From the NCBI RefSeq assembly GCF_036345155.1, contig NZ_CP107772.1:1922001-1986000 (forward strand): a DNA stretch of 64,000 nucleotides. Reading direction: 5' to 3'. Source of the DNA: Streptomyces sp. NBC_00582. GTDB lineage: Bacteria > Actinomycetota > Actinomycetes > Streptomycetales > Streptomycetaceae. Position 1 is the stretch's first letter. Each line of letters opens with the position of its first letter. Made by a program: the position numbers and the translations under genes. The notes under the pieces are model-generated. The model was not told the DNA's origin, did not search any database, and saw only the letters and a list, made by a program, of their open reading frames with translations. Shown here in pieces: positions 23,080-63,718 of the stretch.

Positions 23080-23091
23080 GGCGAATTCCTC

Positions 23092-23252
23092 TCCGGCGCC
23101 TACGAGGTGAGCTGTCGGGTGCGGACTGGAGATGTCCGGCCGCGACGGGTCGCGGCTTTACCCCGAGCCTGTTCCGGAGACCGGACCAGGCGGTTGTGCC
23201 TGTGGGTCCCCCGCTCCTGCCGTGCACGGGTGAGTGTGCGGATTCCGGACGG
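23092..23252 (-). promoter_or_regulatory. ydaO-type c-di-AMP riboswitch in the M23 leader
   Basis: Read on the minus strand just upstream of the gene, the leader has blocks I recognise from actinobacterial ydaO leaders. They are GGAGCGGGGGACCCA, then GGGGTAAAGCCGCG, a GCCGCGACCCGTCGCGGC hairpin, and the 3' signature CCCGACAGCTCACCTCGTAG. The element ends about 15 bases before the ribosome-binding region (GAGAGGAATTCGCC-ATG). c-di-AMP binding is known to turn such hydrolase genes off. The boundaries are approximate. Confidence 0.8.
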
Positions 23253-59054: not shown

Positions 59055-60023
59055 GTGGACAGTCGTGGGCAGGACGAGGTGGTCGTGATCGGCGGCGGGG
59101 TCATCGGGCTGACGACCGCCCTGGTCCTCGCCGAGCGCGGCCGGCGGGTGCGGGTGTGGACGCGGGACCCGGTGGAGCGCACCACCTCGGCCGTGGCCGG
59201 TGCGCTGTGGTGGCCGTACCACATCGAGCCGATGGCGTCGGCGCGGCGCTGGGCGCTGCGCTCGCTGGAGGTGTACGCGGAGCTGGCCGAGCGGCCCGGG
59301 GAGACCGGGGTGCGGCTGGCCGACGGGGTGATGGGTGACACGGACCTCGCGGACGTCGAGAGCTGGGCCGCGGACCGGCTGCCCGTGCTGCGCCGGGCCA
59401 CCGAGGAGGAGTACGGGGCGGGGCCGGCCGTCTGGGCGCGGCTGCCGCTGATCGACATGGCGGTGCATCTGCCGTGGCTGCGGGAGCGGCTGCGGCGGGC
59501 GGGCGGCTCGGTCGAGGAGCGTACGGCGACCGAGCCGGCCGAGGCCGCGGCGCCGGTCGTCGTCAACTGCACGGGCCTGGGCGCACGGGAACTGGTCGGC
59601 GACCTGTCGGTGCGGCCCCAGCGGGGCCAGCTCGTCGTCGTGGAGAACCCCGGCATCGACACCTGGATCGTCTCCGCCGGCCGGGACGGCGCGCCCGCGT
59701 ATCTCTTCCCGCAGCCGGGACGACTGCTGCTGGGCGGTACGGCCGAGGACGACGCCTGGTCGATGGACCCGGACCCGGCGGTCGCCGAGGGGATCGTACG
59801 GCGCTGTGCGGAGCTGCGCCCCGAGGTCGCCGGGGCACGGATCCTGGACCACCGGGTGGGCCTGCGCCCGGTGCGGCCCGCGGTGCGGCTGGAGCGGACG
59901 ACGCTGCCGGACGGACGGCTCCTGGTGCACCACTACGGCCACGGCGGCGCGGGCGTGACGGTGGCCTGGGGTTGCGCGGAGGAGGCGGCCACCTTGGCCA
60001 CCCCCTCGACTGCGACGCCCTAG
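59055..60023 (+). CDS. D-amino-acid oxidase-like FAD enzyme
   Basis: A 322-residue FAD-dependent oxidoreductase of the DAO family. The dinucleotide-binding motif is VVVIGGGVIGLTTALVLAER. AGALWWPYHIEPM and the C-terminal VHHYGHGGAGVTVAWGCAEE match D-amino-acid oxidase, and LPDGRLLVHHYGHGG includes the flavin loop. The GTG start 59055 gives normal length. The stop TAG (60021-60023) is inside the CTAG duplicated by the IS701 insertion. The substrate is likely a neutral D-amino acid by family only. Confidence 0.85.
   Translation: MDSRGQDEVVVIGGGVIGLTTALVLAERGRRVRVWTRDPVERTTSAVAGALWWPYHIEPMASARRWALRSLEVYAELAERPGETGVRLADGVMGDTDLADVESWAADRLPVLRRATEEEYGAGPAVWARLPLIDMAVHLPWLRERLRRAGGSVEERTATEPAEAAAPVVVNCTGLGARELVGDLSVRPQRGQLVVVENPGIDTWIVSAGRDGAPAYLFPQPGRLLLGGTAEDDAWSMDPDPAVAEGIVRRCAELRPEVAGARILDHRVGLRPVRPAVRLERTTLPDGRLLVHHYGHGGAGVTVAWGCAEEAATLATPSTATP
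60020..60023. repeat. Target-site duplication CTAG, left copy of the IS701 element
   Basis: CTAG recurs at 63714-63717 just outside the other end. TAG here is the stop codon of the oxidase gene, so the coding sequence is unaffected. Confidence 0.85.
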
Positions 60024-60134
60024 TAGGGCCTGGTCAGGTTCGTATGGGGGTGGGTATGTCGCGGTGGCAGGTGGGGCAGGCACCGTTCCAGGTGGCGAGG
60101 AGTGTCTGGAGGTCGCGGACGACCTGGTAGAGGC

Positions 60135-61093
60135 TCAGGCCTGCACGGCGTCTTTTGGGTCTCGTGCCAGTCGTTGCAGGGTGCAGAAGGCGTGGGCGGC
60201 GGAGACGAGGGTGACGTGGTGGTGCCAGCCGTTCCAGGTGCGGCCCTCGAAGTGGGCAAGTCCCAGGGCCTGTTTCATCTCGCGGTAGTCGTGCTCGATG
60301 CGCCAGCGCAGCTTGGCCAGCCGCACCAAAGTGGCCAGCGGCATCCCGGAGGGCAGGTCTGAGAGCCAGAACTGCACCGGTTCGGGTTCAGTGGCGGGCC
60401 ACTCGGCCAGCAGCCAGCATTCGGGCAGTTCAGGACCGTCGCTGGTCTTGCGGACGCCTCGTCCGGCGGGTCGCACGCGTAGCGCCACGAACCGCGAGTA
60501 CATGCGTTTGAAGGCGCTGATCGACTTGCCGGGCCGGGAGCCTTCCCTCCAGGACACCGGCCTGGCAGCTGCCCGCCCGGCTGCGATGACCCGCTCTTTC
60601 ATGGTCTGCGCAGGCTCGGGGTACTGCATTGCCGGTGGCCGGCCAGTGCCCGCGTAAGCGGGCTGGACGGGCCGGGCATCGGCCGGATGAGCGGTGTGGC
60701 GGGAGGAAATGCCCACCACATAGGGCAGGTTGCGTTCTTCCAGGCCGTGGCGGAAAGCGGCGGCATCCCCGTAACCGGCGTCCGTGACGACCAGGGGAAT
60801 GTCGATGCCCCACGACCGGGTCTCGTCGATCATGTCCAGGGCCAGCTGCCACTTCTCCACATGCCCCACCCGGTCGGGGATGCCGCAGCGGGTGCGGCGG
60901 GCGACCTTGTCCGGGTCCGCCTCCGCAGAGGCCGGATCCCAGGACGCGGGCAGGAACAGTCGCCAGTTCACCGCAGCCGAGGCATGATCCCGGGCCAGAT
61001 GCAGCGACACCCCGACCTGGCATTTGGTGACCTTGCCCGCGGTGCCGGTGTACTGCCGCGACACACACGCCGAGGCGTCCCCGTCCTTCAAGA
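60135..61093 (-). CDS. IS701 transposase, 3' exon
   Basis: The C-terminal part of the transposase (319 codons after joining). It starts with the end of the disrupted codon (TC), then LKDGDASACVSRQYTGTAGK. It carries the second catalytic Asp in VVTDAGYGDAAAFRHGLEER and the Glu region WRIEHDYREMKQALGLAHFEGRTW. The exon ends at 60135. Upstream of 61093 the frame is lost into the intron. Alone it cannot make an active transposase because the first catalytic Asp is in the 5' exon; splicing is required. Confidence 0.85.
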
Positions 61094-61156
61094 GTTGGGT
61101 CGGGGACGGGACGCCATGCACCCTCTCGGGTGTCGGTTTTCCCATCCCCGCCCGCC

Positions 61157-61191
61157 GAACCGGACGTGCCCGTTGGCCGAGCATCCGGCTC
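61157..61191 (-). ncRNA. Group II intron domain V
   Basis: On the minus strand GAGCCGGATGC pairs with GCACGTCCGGTTC around a loop, with the catalytic AGC near the 5' base of the stem (GAGCCG). This is the most conserved part of group II intron RNA. Confidence 0.8.
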
Positions 61192-61209
61192 TCCACGTGA
61201 TCCGATGGA

Positions 61210-62739
61210 TCAGGCGAGGTATTCACTGACCTGACCGACGAAGGCCACATCGTCGTGGCTGGTCCGGCGGAAGCGAGCCCCGCGTGGATCGACCTCGTCG
61301 ATGTTGTAGGGCGTGCTGATCTGCGCTCCGCGGAAGCGGTAGCGTTCGACCTTCATCTTCGCCGGGTTGTAGAGAACGATCCCGCCCTCTGCGATGCTGT
61401 CCGCTGGGAAATATCGGCGTCGCATCTGTTTCCAGGTCATGCGGGGGTGCTTGCGGCGAATCCAGAGATTCATTCTCCGCCACGCGTACCAGCCGAGGTA
61501 CGAGAACGTCTTCTTCGAGACGCCGTAGCGGAAATAGGCTGCCCAGCCCCGAAGAACCGGGTTGACCGCCCGCAGCACCTCCTCCAACGAGAGCGAGGTC
61601 ATACCACGCCCCGTCAACTTCTTGATCTTGTGCATCACCGATGCCAAAGCCTGCTTGGCCGGAATGGTGAGCACAACACGACGACCTCCGCCCCAGGGCC
61701 TGCGCTGGATGTGGAAGCCCAGGAAGACGAACCCGTCGTCGATGTGTGTGATGTGGGTCTTCTCGTCCGAAAGGGTCATCTTCAGCCTGTTGGCCAGCAG
61801 CACACCGATCTCCGTCTTCAGTGCTTCAGCCTCTTCCCTCGTGCCGTGCACAAGCACTACGAAGTCATCGGCGTAACGCACCAGCCGGAAGTTCGGCAGT
61901 CCCTTGCGACGCCGATGCTGCCGACGCCAGGCCGGGGTCATCTCGATGTCCCAGATCCGCGAGAAATGCCGGTCCAGGACGGAGAGATAGATGTTCGCCA
62001 ACAGCGGTGAGACGACTCCTCCTTGCGGAGTTCCGGTGAGGGACTCCGCGAATCCACCCTGCAATTCGACAACTCCGGTCCGCAGAAACGCGCTGACCAG
62101 CCGCAGAACCTTGCGGTCCTTGACGCGCTCGGCCACCAGGTCCATTAGGACGTGGTGATCGACGTTGTCGAAGCAAGCCTTGATGTCGCCCTCGATGACC
62201 CACTCGTAGTTCGACGGCTTACTGGTGAAGTGGTGGATCTCGGCGATGGCATCCTGAGCCCGACGTCCAGGCCGGTATCCGTAACTGGATGGATAGAAAT
62301 CGGTTTCGAAGATCGGTTCCAGGACCAGCTTGAGAGCCATCTGCGCCACCCGGTCGCGCAGAGTCGGGATACCCAAGTAACGAACCTTTCCGTTCTTCTT
62401 GGGAATCACCGCCTGCTTGACCGGAAGCGCCGTGAAAGACCCGTCCTTGAGCGAAGAGCGAAGCTCCTCCAGGAACGGAATCAATCCATGACGTTCCTCG
62501 ACGTGATAACGGGTGACCCCATCCACGCCCGCTGTCCTGGCACCCCGGTTGCCAGAGACCCGTTCCCAGGCCACCAATAATGTGGCCTGATCACAGATCA
62601 AGTTGAATACATCATCGAACCGGCGATCCGGTTCGGCCCTTGCCCATCGGTGCAGCTTGATCTGGTGATCGAGTACCCGTCGCTCAGCCGTCATACTGCC
62701 CGGCCAAGTTGTTGTCGACGGCACGTCGTTATTCAACAA
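61210..62739 (-). CDS. Group II intron reverse transcriptase/maturase
   Basis: A 509-residue intron-encoded protein needed for splicing and mobility. Reverse-transcriptase blocks are visible: VIPKKNGKVRYLGIPTLRDR, YPSSYGYRPGRRAQDAI, GTPQGGVVSPLLANIYL, and the catalytic FRLVRYADDFVVLVHG (YADD). Maturase domain X follows (LEEVLRAVNPVLRGWAAYFR). No C-terminal HNH endonuclease motif follows; the tail is short. TTG 62739 has GGGGAGGAACG upstream and gives full length. ATG 62694 is an alternative. Intact motifs suggest an active enzyme. Confidence 0.92.
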   Translation of the reverse strand: MLNNDVPSTTTWPGSMTAERRVLDHQIKLHRWARAEPDRRFDDVFNLICDQATLLVAWERVSGNRGARTAGVDGVTRYHVEERHGLIPFLEELRSSLKDGSFTALPVKQAVIPKKNGKVRYLGIPTLRDRVAQMALKLVLEPIFETDFYPSSYGYRPGRRAQDAIAEIHHFTSKPSNYEWVIEGDIKACFDNVDHHVLMDLVAERVKDRKVLRLVSAFLRTGVVELQGGFAESLTGTPQGGVVSPLLANIYLSVLDRHFSRIWDIEMTPAWRRQHRRRKGLPNFRLVRYADDFVVLVHGTREEAEALKTEIGVLLANRLKMTLSDEKTHITHIDDGFVFLGFHIQRRPWGGGRRVVLTIPAKQALASVMHKIKKLTGRGMTSLSLEEVLRAVNPVLRGWAAYFRYGVSKKTFSYLGWYAWRRMNLWIRRKHPRMTWKQMRRRYFPADSIAEGGIVLYNPAKMKVERYRFRGAQISTPYNIDEVDPRGARFRRTSHDDVAFVGQVSEYLA

Positions 62740-63341
62740 CGTTCCTCCCCGACAGCAGTCCTGCTGCTATCACGCTGCCGCCCTTTCCCGTGTGACCGGC
62801 TTTCCCGGCCTCTGAGTACTACGGCGACTCCGCCACGATCTGGCGTCATCAGCGGGCATTGCGCCTGCCCGCCGCCCGGCCGGCTGCCGGACGGGGAGGG
62901 CGATGCCAGATCGCTTCCCACGTTCACTGAGAATCTTTGCGACGGCTTCGGTGCCCGGCTTTACCCCGGCAGCATCGCCACGGACCGCATATCGCAGGAT
63001 TGGTCCGGGCCTCCCGACGTGCCACAAGCTAAGGACGTCAGGAGAGGAGAGGCCACCGGATAGAGCACTCTCCAGCACTGCAGCGCGGTCCATCCACCAG
63101 ATTTGGCAGACCGCTGACGACTCACGGGGCTTCAACCACCGGTTCAGTTTCCTTGCACCCATTCCGTCTTCGCTTGCGGGCACGAACCATCTGGTGGTCT
63201 CGGTTCGCCCCTACGTTGTCGAGGCCGCTTCCAGCTTCACCCCAACCCAGGGTTCCGCCTGCCTCCAGCTTCAGCCAGTCACTGCGATGACCAGCGGCGG
63301 GTTCTCCCTCCCGCTCGATTCCTCAGCGCCTCGTGGCGCAC

Positions 63342-63648
63342 AACCGGTGTCGTCGACGATCAACGCCTCCGCCCCGATCGCCTCCTGCATTCTCCAGGCC
63401 GTCCGGGCCCGCACATGCGCCGGATCCCACGGGCTCGTCGTCACAAAGTGGGCCAGGGCCTGCCGGTTGCCGTCCTCACCGAGGCGGGCCGCCATCGGCT
63501 CCACCGACTTGCGCCGGCCGTCCAGTAGCAGCCCGCGCACATACGCCTGCCCCCACCGCCGCTGGTCCGCACGGAAGAACCCGTCGAACAACTCCGCAGC
63601 GAATGCCTCCAGGTCCTCCCGGACCCCGGCCATCTCCTCAGGTGTCAC
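63342..63648 (-). CDS. IS701 transposase, 5' exon
   Basis: The N-terminal part of the transposase. From GTG 63648 (or ATG 63633) it reads EEMAGVREDLEAFAAELFDG, then RADQRRWGQAYVRGLLLDGR, and ends at the catalytic Asp motif AEALIVDDTG. The intron interrupts the next codon (F). With the 3' exon the product is 416 or 421 residues, normal for the family. In the unspliced RNA translation runs on to a stop at 63271, giving only a short dead product. Confidence 0.82.
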
Positions 63649-63718
63649 ACCACCCCAACGACCCTCATGGGCCAGCAGACACTCCACCCACGAGTGAAGA
63701 TGACCAAGCCCTACTAGG

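Follow-up and report, generated by a model that had tools for sequence, protein, structure and literature searches.

A group II intron lineage of Actinomycetes that very probably homes, guided by RNA, to acidic active-site motifs in transposition proteins

The DNA analyzed here, a 64,000-nucleotide stretch from Streptomyces sp. NBC_00582 (the window), encodes a transposase whose reading frame breaks off shortly after an Asp-Asp pair and resumes 2248 nt away, on the far side of a group II intron. This arrangement raises the questions of (i) whether the intron can be removed such that the transposase of its host insertion sequence (IS) is restored; and (ii) whether its position beside an acidic motif is incidental to one IS or reflects target selection by the intron. 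The features on which the argument depends are the following.

61094..63341, minus strand: group II intron, 2248 nt, GTGCG...CCAAC; placed by the Rfam end, a second copy, and conserved junctions in relatives
61094..61193, minus strand: domains V and VI (RF00029, 45.1 bits)
61210..62739, minus strand: intron-encoded reverse transcriptase/maturase (IEP), 509 aa, with RYADDF and GIIM; from the open reading frame and profiles
60024..63713, minus strand: IS701-family IS carrying the intron; terminal inverted repeats agreeing at 12 of their first 13 bases (TAGGGCYTGGTCA), CTAG on both sides, NF033540 transposase
60020..60023, no strand: left target-site duplication CTAG, from flank comparison
63714..63717, no strand: right target-site duplication CTAG, from flank comparison
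63342..63687, minus strand: transposase 5′ exon, starting at GTG 63685-63687 or ATG 63631-63633 and ending ...IVDDTG plus T; from DDE_5, NF033540 positions 1-91, and the frame
60135..61093, minus strand: transposase 3′ exon, TC plus LKDGDASACV..., stop included; from NF033540 positions 94-363 and DDE_5
63349..63354, minus strand: IBS2, GACGAC, the Asp-Asp codons, exon −13 to −8; from aligned sites
63116..63121, minus strand: EBS2, GUCGUC, intron nt 221-226, 6/6 pairs with IBS2; from aligned sites
63342..63349, minus strand: IBS1, CACCGGTT, exon −8 to −1, base −8 being also counted in IBS2; from aligned sites
63054..63061, minus strand: EBS1, AUCCGGUG, intron nt 281-288, 7/8 pairs with IBS1; from aligned sites
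62961..62961, minus strand: EBS3, A, intron nt 381, pairs with T at +1 (61093); complementary in 16/16 introns

Boundaries of the intron and the frame of its host

The element was found to have the characters of a group II intron, including domains V and VI, the end motif, an IEP with reverse transcriptase and maturase domains, and EBS1/EBS2 pairing. Group II introns carry GUGYG at the 5′ end and AY at the 3′ end; the termini GTGCG and CCAAC agree with this motif, and a preliminary description of the locus had likewise read a GUGYG start and an AC end. When the covariance model was applied, the domain V-VI match to RF00029 (45.1 bits; gathering score 40) was found to have 61094 as its final base, the same base that had been proposed as the last of the intron. 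Together with the EBS1, EBS2, and EBS3 pairings, this leaves the earlier placement of the intron at 61094-63341 exact to the base. The 3′ splice site is fixed with the same precision, since EBS3 was complementary to the +1 base in 16/16 rows with both ends known (T in 3, C in 2, and A in 11; two row pairs being near-copies), while a scan over the first 620 nt found no other column above 11/16. Nor is the junction a product of chance, as it is seen again in the other intron copy of the genome and in relatives. The eight-base IBS1-like match reported earlier was narrowed to a run of six Watson-Crick pairs that is broken by a mismatch at −2 and followed by one more pair at −1. By eye, EBS1 seems to sit in a hairpin loop, with compensatory stem changes in some relatives.

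The complementarity of intron nt 381 to the +1 base is a mark of subgroup IIB. The IEP, which begins with TTG, was matched by RVT_1 and GIIM only when scanned with Pfam at E ≤ 0.001, with no endonuclease domain detected, and scored 369.7 bits against TIGR04416 (cut-off 300); its best solved relatives were a maturase reverse transcriptase (6me0) and LtrA. This lack of an endonuclease domain is a property of RmInt1-like class D introns. Overall, these characters suggest a group IIB-like intron that is mobile and probably active and that lacks an endonuclease domain.

The host was assigned to the IS701 family by its transposase profile, its terminal inverted repeats, and the short target duplication CTAG. 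On NF033540, the 5′ piece covered positions 1-91 (98.2 bits alone) and the 3′ piece, from its second residue, positions 94-363 (303.7 bits; cut-off 150), with the junction codon and a Leu between them. The profile resumes in register across the intron, which was inserted after IVDDTG in phase 1, and the earlier claim that exact joining restores the frame is borne out. The proposed nesting of an intron within an IS was also supported by the profiles, boundaries, and guide pairing, while the length of 416 residues given for the product holds for the ATG start at 63631-63633, the GTG at 63685-63687 giving 434. In the unspliced transcript, the exon frame meets a stop inside the intron, its open frame ending at 63271, and the transposase therefore needs the predicted splicing. 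The preliminary statement that the IS is dead unless the intron splices was upheld to that extent; however, by the parallel of RmInt1, the "dependence" of the IS on its intron may mostly mean that the IS is silenced. Splicing is predicted at the bases listed above and would restore the transposase. A DNA search of the genome with both IS halves detected no other IS copies, the only matches being short and weak. Movement of the IS together with its intron was also considered and is unsupported, with no further IS copy in the genome at the sensitivity used. Elsewhere in the window, a c-di-AMP (ydaO) riboswitch was detected at 23084-23242 on the minus strand (54.9 bits).

The second copy and the relatives of the intron

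The genome (11.1 Mb, two contigs) holds a second copy of the intron (locus L006), which differs at 15 alignment columns over 2248 nt and interrupts a different IS701 transposase at the corresponding codon. Directly upstream of the intron, 19 consecutive exon bases are common to both hosts, as are 2 directly downstream; the host exons are identical at 219/318 and 535/807 nucleotides, and their second exons are 29% identical as protein. On these alignments, the intron has moved recently between two hosts that now lie in one genome. When the genome was scanned with the IS701 profile, 12 places were identified: two above the cut-off, which are the second exons of the intron-carrying copies, two that are the first exons of the same copies, and eight pieces, none spanning more than about 101 profile positions. 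No terminal repeats of the second host IS were found in L006 at the threshold used. A broken IS701 transposase fragment lies near the second copy (G000:C1:2664496-2665046; profile 2-102 and 99-184, intron absent between), and the motif GAYGAYACNGG was not found in the loci of this fragment. On the 10.79-Mb contig, both intron copies lie to the left of dnaA (at 5.44 Mb) in minus-strand orientation. Replication of such chromosomes starts at dnaA; if it does so here, the sense strand of both copies would be the lagging-strand template, although this amounts to two cases only. The lagging-strand template is the preferred entry of RmInt1 (PMC5894124).

Relatives of the intron were collected at no fewer than 79 loci in named genomes. 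The genus survey covered 392 genomes, 49 of which (own included) had a match at E ≤ 1e-30, the best match being less than 70% identical in 34 of the 49; the class survey covered 394 genomes, with a match at 1e-60 in nine, own included. In the families of three genomes so found, 2/35, 9/341, and 1/3 genomes had a match, those three being counted again. Plasmids contributed 101 records at any similarity, including 19 whose best place was at least 80% identical. Close relatives were selected blind to the exon by an intron similarity of at least 74% at the 5′ end, giving 25 entries with the window included, of which 22 were distinct. The following rules were applied to the counts: (i) L016, L017, and L021 duplicate L138, L139, and L137, and the flanks of L048, L134, and L135 duplicate those of L122, L027, and L014, and these duplicates were dropped; (ii) L040 and L097, identical in the 3′ tree, were counted once; (iii) L120, a 91-nt match of the distant lineage, was left out of the 22; (iv) L014 and L135, which lack the first bases of the intron, were counted at the 3′ end only; and (v) the distant L112 and L129 were left out of the 3′ junctions, and L117, with five exon bases, out of the control described below. 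L096 forms a long branch in the 5′ tree, and the sequence used for it contains the start of another intron, such that the place of L096 was not relied on. Several of the related loci are fragments or have broken hosts; host frames were broken near the intron, for example, in L018 and L128 (upstream) and in L093, L014, and L133 (downstream).

Target choice and its relationship to the codons

Alignment of the 22 distinct 5′ junctions of the close Actinomycete relatives revealed GAYGA at exon −13 to −9 in every one (GACGA in 18 and GATGA in 4), compared with 0/16 junctions of distant lineages used as the control. On this control, the broader proposal of GAYGA reading by all actinobacterial group II introns was rejected; some of the distant junctions are antisense. 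The register common to the 22 was Asp-[Asp/Glu]-x-x plus one base, in hosts assigned by profile on representatives as IS701 (5), IstB (11), IS630 (5), and TniB (1). At 17 further distinct 3′ junctions that lack a 5′ junction, the 3′ exons continued the same protein kinds as judged by eye (L133 on six residues). With a slash marking the intron, the host junctions read: (i) VDDTG/F in IS701 (profile 1-91 and 94-363); (ii) CIDELG/Y in the IS21 helper ATPase IstB (1-161 and 164-231); (iii) CLDEFG/P and CVDEKS/Q in IS630 (1-152 and 154-297 for CVDEKS/Q); and (iv) VDEIH/N in a TniB-like ATPase, with PF05621 on the 5′ side and no match on the 3′ side. We take the acids at these junctions to be the DDE catalytic Asp of the transposases and the Walker B pair of IstB and TniB. 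The IstB exon was found to align with the solved IS5376 IstB through IDE(L/M)G.

The guide elements differed in how far they varied among these introns. EBS2 holds UCGUC in 20/22, the exceptions being UCAUC (L015) and UUGUC (L142); UCGUC pairs with GACGA by Watson-Crick pairs and with GATGA via one G-U, and by eye was present at the aligned place in 0/17 distant rows. EBS1 varied, being AUCCGGUG in the four aligned IS701 introns; AUCCGA (3), AGCCGA (3), AACCGA (1), AGCCUA (1), or AGCCAA (1) in nine IstB introns; and GUCCGA in two introns of the IS630a type, where exon −1 is C instead of T. EBS1 scored best on its own target class for IS701 (13.8 versus at most 9.3) and IS630b (9.7 versus at most 8.3), and narrowly so for IS630a (11.0 versus 10.8). 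The IstB introns scored higher on IS701 exons than on their own (11.4 versus 10.3), as did the IstB-variant and TniB introns (11.8 versus 9.0 and 6.0). EBS1 of the TniB intron misfits its own exon (6/16), EBS1 pairing in the IS630b introns is partial (best scores 8, 10, and 10 out of 16), and the EBS1 alignment is poor for L125 (8) and L142 (7, or 10 after a shift). A blind column scan for EBS1 with exon permutation gave mild results for −6 to −1 (14/200) and −7 to −1 (15/200) and failed for −8 to −1 (128/200), perhaps owing to the single target type shared by many rows; the view of aligned sites and the EBS3 scan are more telling than this blind scan.

The non-Watson-Crick pairs were sorted by codon position. 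Across the core (−13 to −9 and −6 to −1) of the 16 introns with an alignable EBS1, non-Watson-Crick pairs were detected at 19/48 third positions and 0/128 first or second positions (Fisher 8e-13); this P value and those below are nominal, because rows share ancestry (the window and L006, and L138 and L139, are near-copies). Positions −7 and −8 had first been left out as outside the six-base core, and once they are included the contrast is no longer absolute (31/64 versus 12/144, nominal 3e-10), −7 being a first codon position that is unpaired in 12/16 introns. For all 22 introns the counts were 28/66 versus 14/176 in the core and 46/88 versus 26/198 with −7 and −8 added (nominal 1e-11). Such a pattern is expected if what lasts in the target is the protein motif, though third-position mismatches could simply reflect variable bases in a conserved motif.

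Movement between host families was also apparent. Introns that are 99% identical (1427/1440 and 747/754) were identified in two genomes belonging to one genus, one inside IstB and the other inside TniB, and the TniB intron looks like a recent off-target move that kept the EBS2 part of the target. With six target labels, seven changes were counted on the 5′ tree and nine on the 3′ tree; with the IstB variants merged into IstB, there were five and six. Independent target switches are thus few, as target types cluster on the trees.

Both EBS2 and the insertion sites differ in the distant introns, yet several of these introns lie within transposases, including IS3 at WVADI/T (profile 173-223 and 224-272), ISAzo13 at KWNKIE/H (261-310 and 311-360), ISL3, IS5, and, in antisense, the ID/E codons of IS630; the residues at these sites are presumably catalytic. 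Several loci showed further arrangements. In a twintron of Streptomyces alanosinicus (L023:4868-7015), the outer reverse transcriptase is interrupted in frame by an inner group II intron at RYADDF/VVMV, and the outer intron is itself in an IS630 active-site motif. In another Streptomyces (L024:2775-2961), a different inner intron seems to start at the YADD motif in the IEP of the outer one (RF01999 match at 2844-2961). The genome of the window has a third, diverged intron copy (L007:3460-6495) at an IS110-like GIDWAEDH/HDVV motif identified by eye; its 30-residue 5′ piece had no profile match, and another transposase open reading frame lies inside the intron. Lastly, in L104, L106, L110, L115, and L126 a lineage is repeatedly antisense at a TRYDK-like motif that by eye resembles an IS5-type transposase; splicing could not restore the gene there.

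Explanations, known systems, and biological meaning

The boundaries, the guide pairing, the covariation of EBS3, and the recurrent insertion at the motif are established at the level of sequence. The reading that we strongly favor is that an actinomycete intron lineage homes, guided by its RNA, to the acidic motif at the active site of transposition proteins. EBS2 (GUCGUC) would pair with GAY GAN, i.e., Asp-Asp or Asp-Glu codons, EBS1 with the following two codons plus one base, and EBS3 with exon base +1. One guide could serve many insertion sequences because catalytic need fixes most of the paired first and second codon positions and EBS2 tolerates GAT via G-U. Small changes in EBS1 and EBS3, or a tolerated mismatch, would then move the lineage among IS701, IS630, IstB, and TniB genes, and until the intron splices the IS would make no full transposase. 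In effect, an RNA-guided retroelement would be reading an acidic active-site codon pair.

Three other explanations were weighed against motif reading. An ordinary, RmInt1-like intron nested in an IS could home to one IS701 sequence, its location in the active site being incidental and its relatives representing unrelated retargeting; introns in transposase genes (PMC4238363, PMC5894124) and EBS retargeting in Thermosynechococcus elongatus (PMC2882425) are indeed both known. However, this does not sit well with an acidic-pair register that is the same in 22/22 junctions versus 0/16 distant ones, with four profile-supported host families, and with a nearly constant EBS2, and we consider it quite improbable. 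The clustering of target types on the trees would agree with vertical inheritance, i.e., one ancient entry into an ancestral IS followed by an intron that tracked each IS family, but this is contradicted by both pairs of 99% identical introns in different hosts, one within a single genome and the other within a single genus. IS701, IS630, IstB, and TniB are moreover unrelated or very distant proteins, and so single ancient entry is hardly credible.

The remaining alternative holds that the intron is a dead relic whose IEP or ribozyme no longer works, such that the IS is simply inactivated. The IS was found in a single copy in the genome at the sensitivity used, and related loci include fragments and broken hosts, which would fit a relic; counter to this, the 509-aa IEP is intact, domain V exceeds the Rfam threshold, EBS1, EBS2, and EBS3 all pair, a recent 99% copy is present, and both exons are open. 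We regard the relic as unlikely and retain motif reading by a probably functional intron.

Comparison with known systems, drawn from the accessible text of the cited papers, places the intron nearest to RmInt1, a IIB3/class D intron in the ISRm2011-2 transposase gene of Sinorhizobium meliloti (PMC3123198, PMC4238363, PMC5894124). The two are alike in having a reverse transcriptase/maturase without an endonuclease domain, a transposase-gene host, IBS2 at −13 to −9, and EBS3-IBS3 pairing in the IIB manner (same sources). Correct exon ligation by RmInt1 is reported to be below 1%, and it is regarded as a brake on its IS (PMC4238363). They differ in that GATGAG is read by EBS1 in RmInt1, whereas the intron of the window reads the acidic codons by EBS2, and in that the hosts stated for RmInt1 are ISRm2011-2, close relatives, and ectopic oxidoreductase genes rather than several transposition families (PMC5894124). 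When the published IBS letters of RmInt1 (PMC3123198) were located on pSymA of S. meliloti, they were found to read LVFIDE/TWTKTN in an IS630 transposase. Among the RmInt1-type sites there (L160-L163), three were uninterrupted and one was followed by GTGTG; the open frame of one uninterrupted copy scored 145.1 bits as IS630, while its 38-residue part before the site gave no match alone. RmInt1 would thus appear to be a second, separate system that reads the same kind of motif with EBS1.

The TeI introns of T. elongatus (CL/IIB1) also show EBS divergence toward new targets and have entered other mobile elements as well as introns; they differ in an IEP with an endonuclease domain (TeI4h) and many intergenic sites, and an active-site motif is not described in the accessible text (PMC2882425). 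Inteins and homing-endonuclease group I introns similarly favor conserved, functional positions in their host proteins (PMC2814812), although they are targeted by a protein endonuclease and not by an RNA guide. Unlike these elements, group II introns had no preference for conserved sites in one survey, so far as its accessible text states (PMC2814812). Group II introns in transposase genes are already known (PMC4238363, PMC5894124), so that nesting in an IS alone is not new; the reading of a motif across protein families is. No paper describing active-site codon targeting by group II introns was found in searches of an open-access library, which is weak evidence, as subscription papers lie outside that scope.

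A wider proposal, to which we give an even chance, is that IS-dwelling group II introns are a general class that homes to catalytic motifs as the RNA-guided counterpart of inteins, with separate lineages reading active-site acid codons (by EBS2 here, by EBS1 in RmInt1, and others at IS3, ISAzo13, ISL3, and IS110 motifs and at YADD of reverse transcriptases). If true, this class would gain durable targets in unrelated transposons and act as a natural brake on transposition. For the lineage described here, catalytic-acid codons were picked repeatedly across several transposition families, with mismatches mostly at degenerate positions of the code. Motif reading would explain how one intron persists on insertion sequences that turn over rapidly, and suggests a natural, RNA-guided control of transposition.
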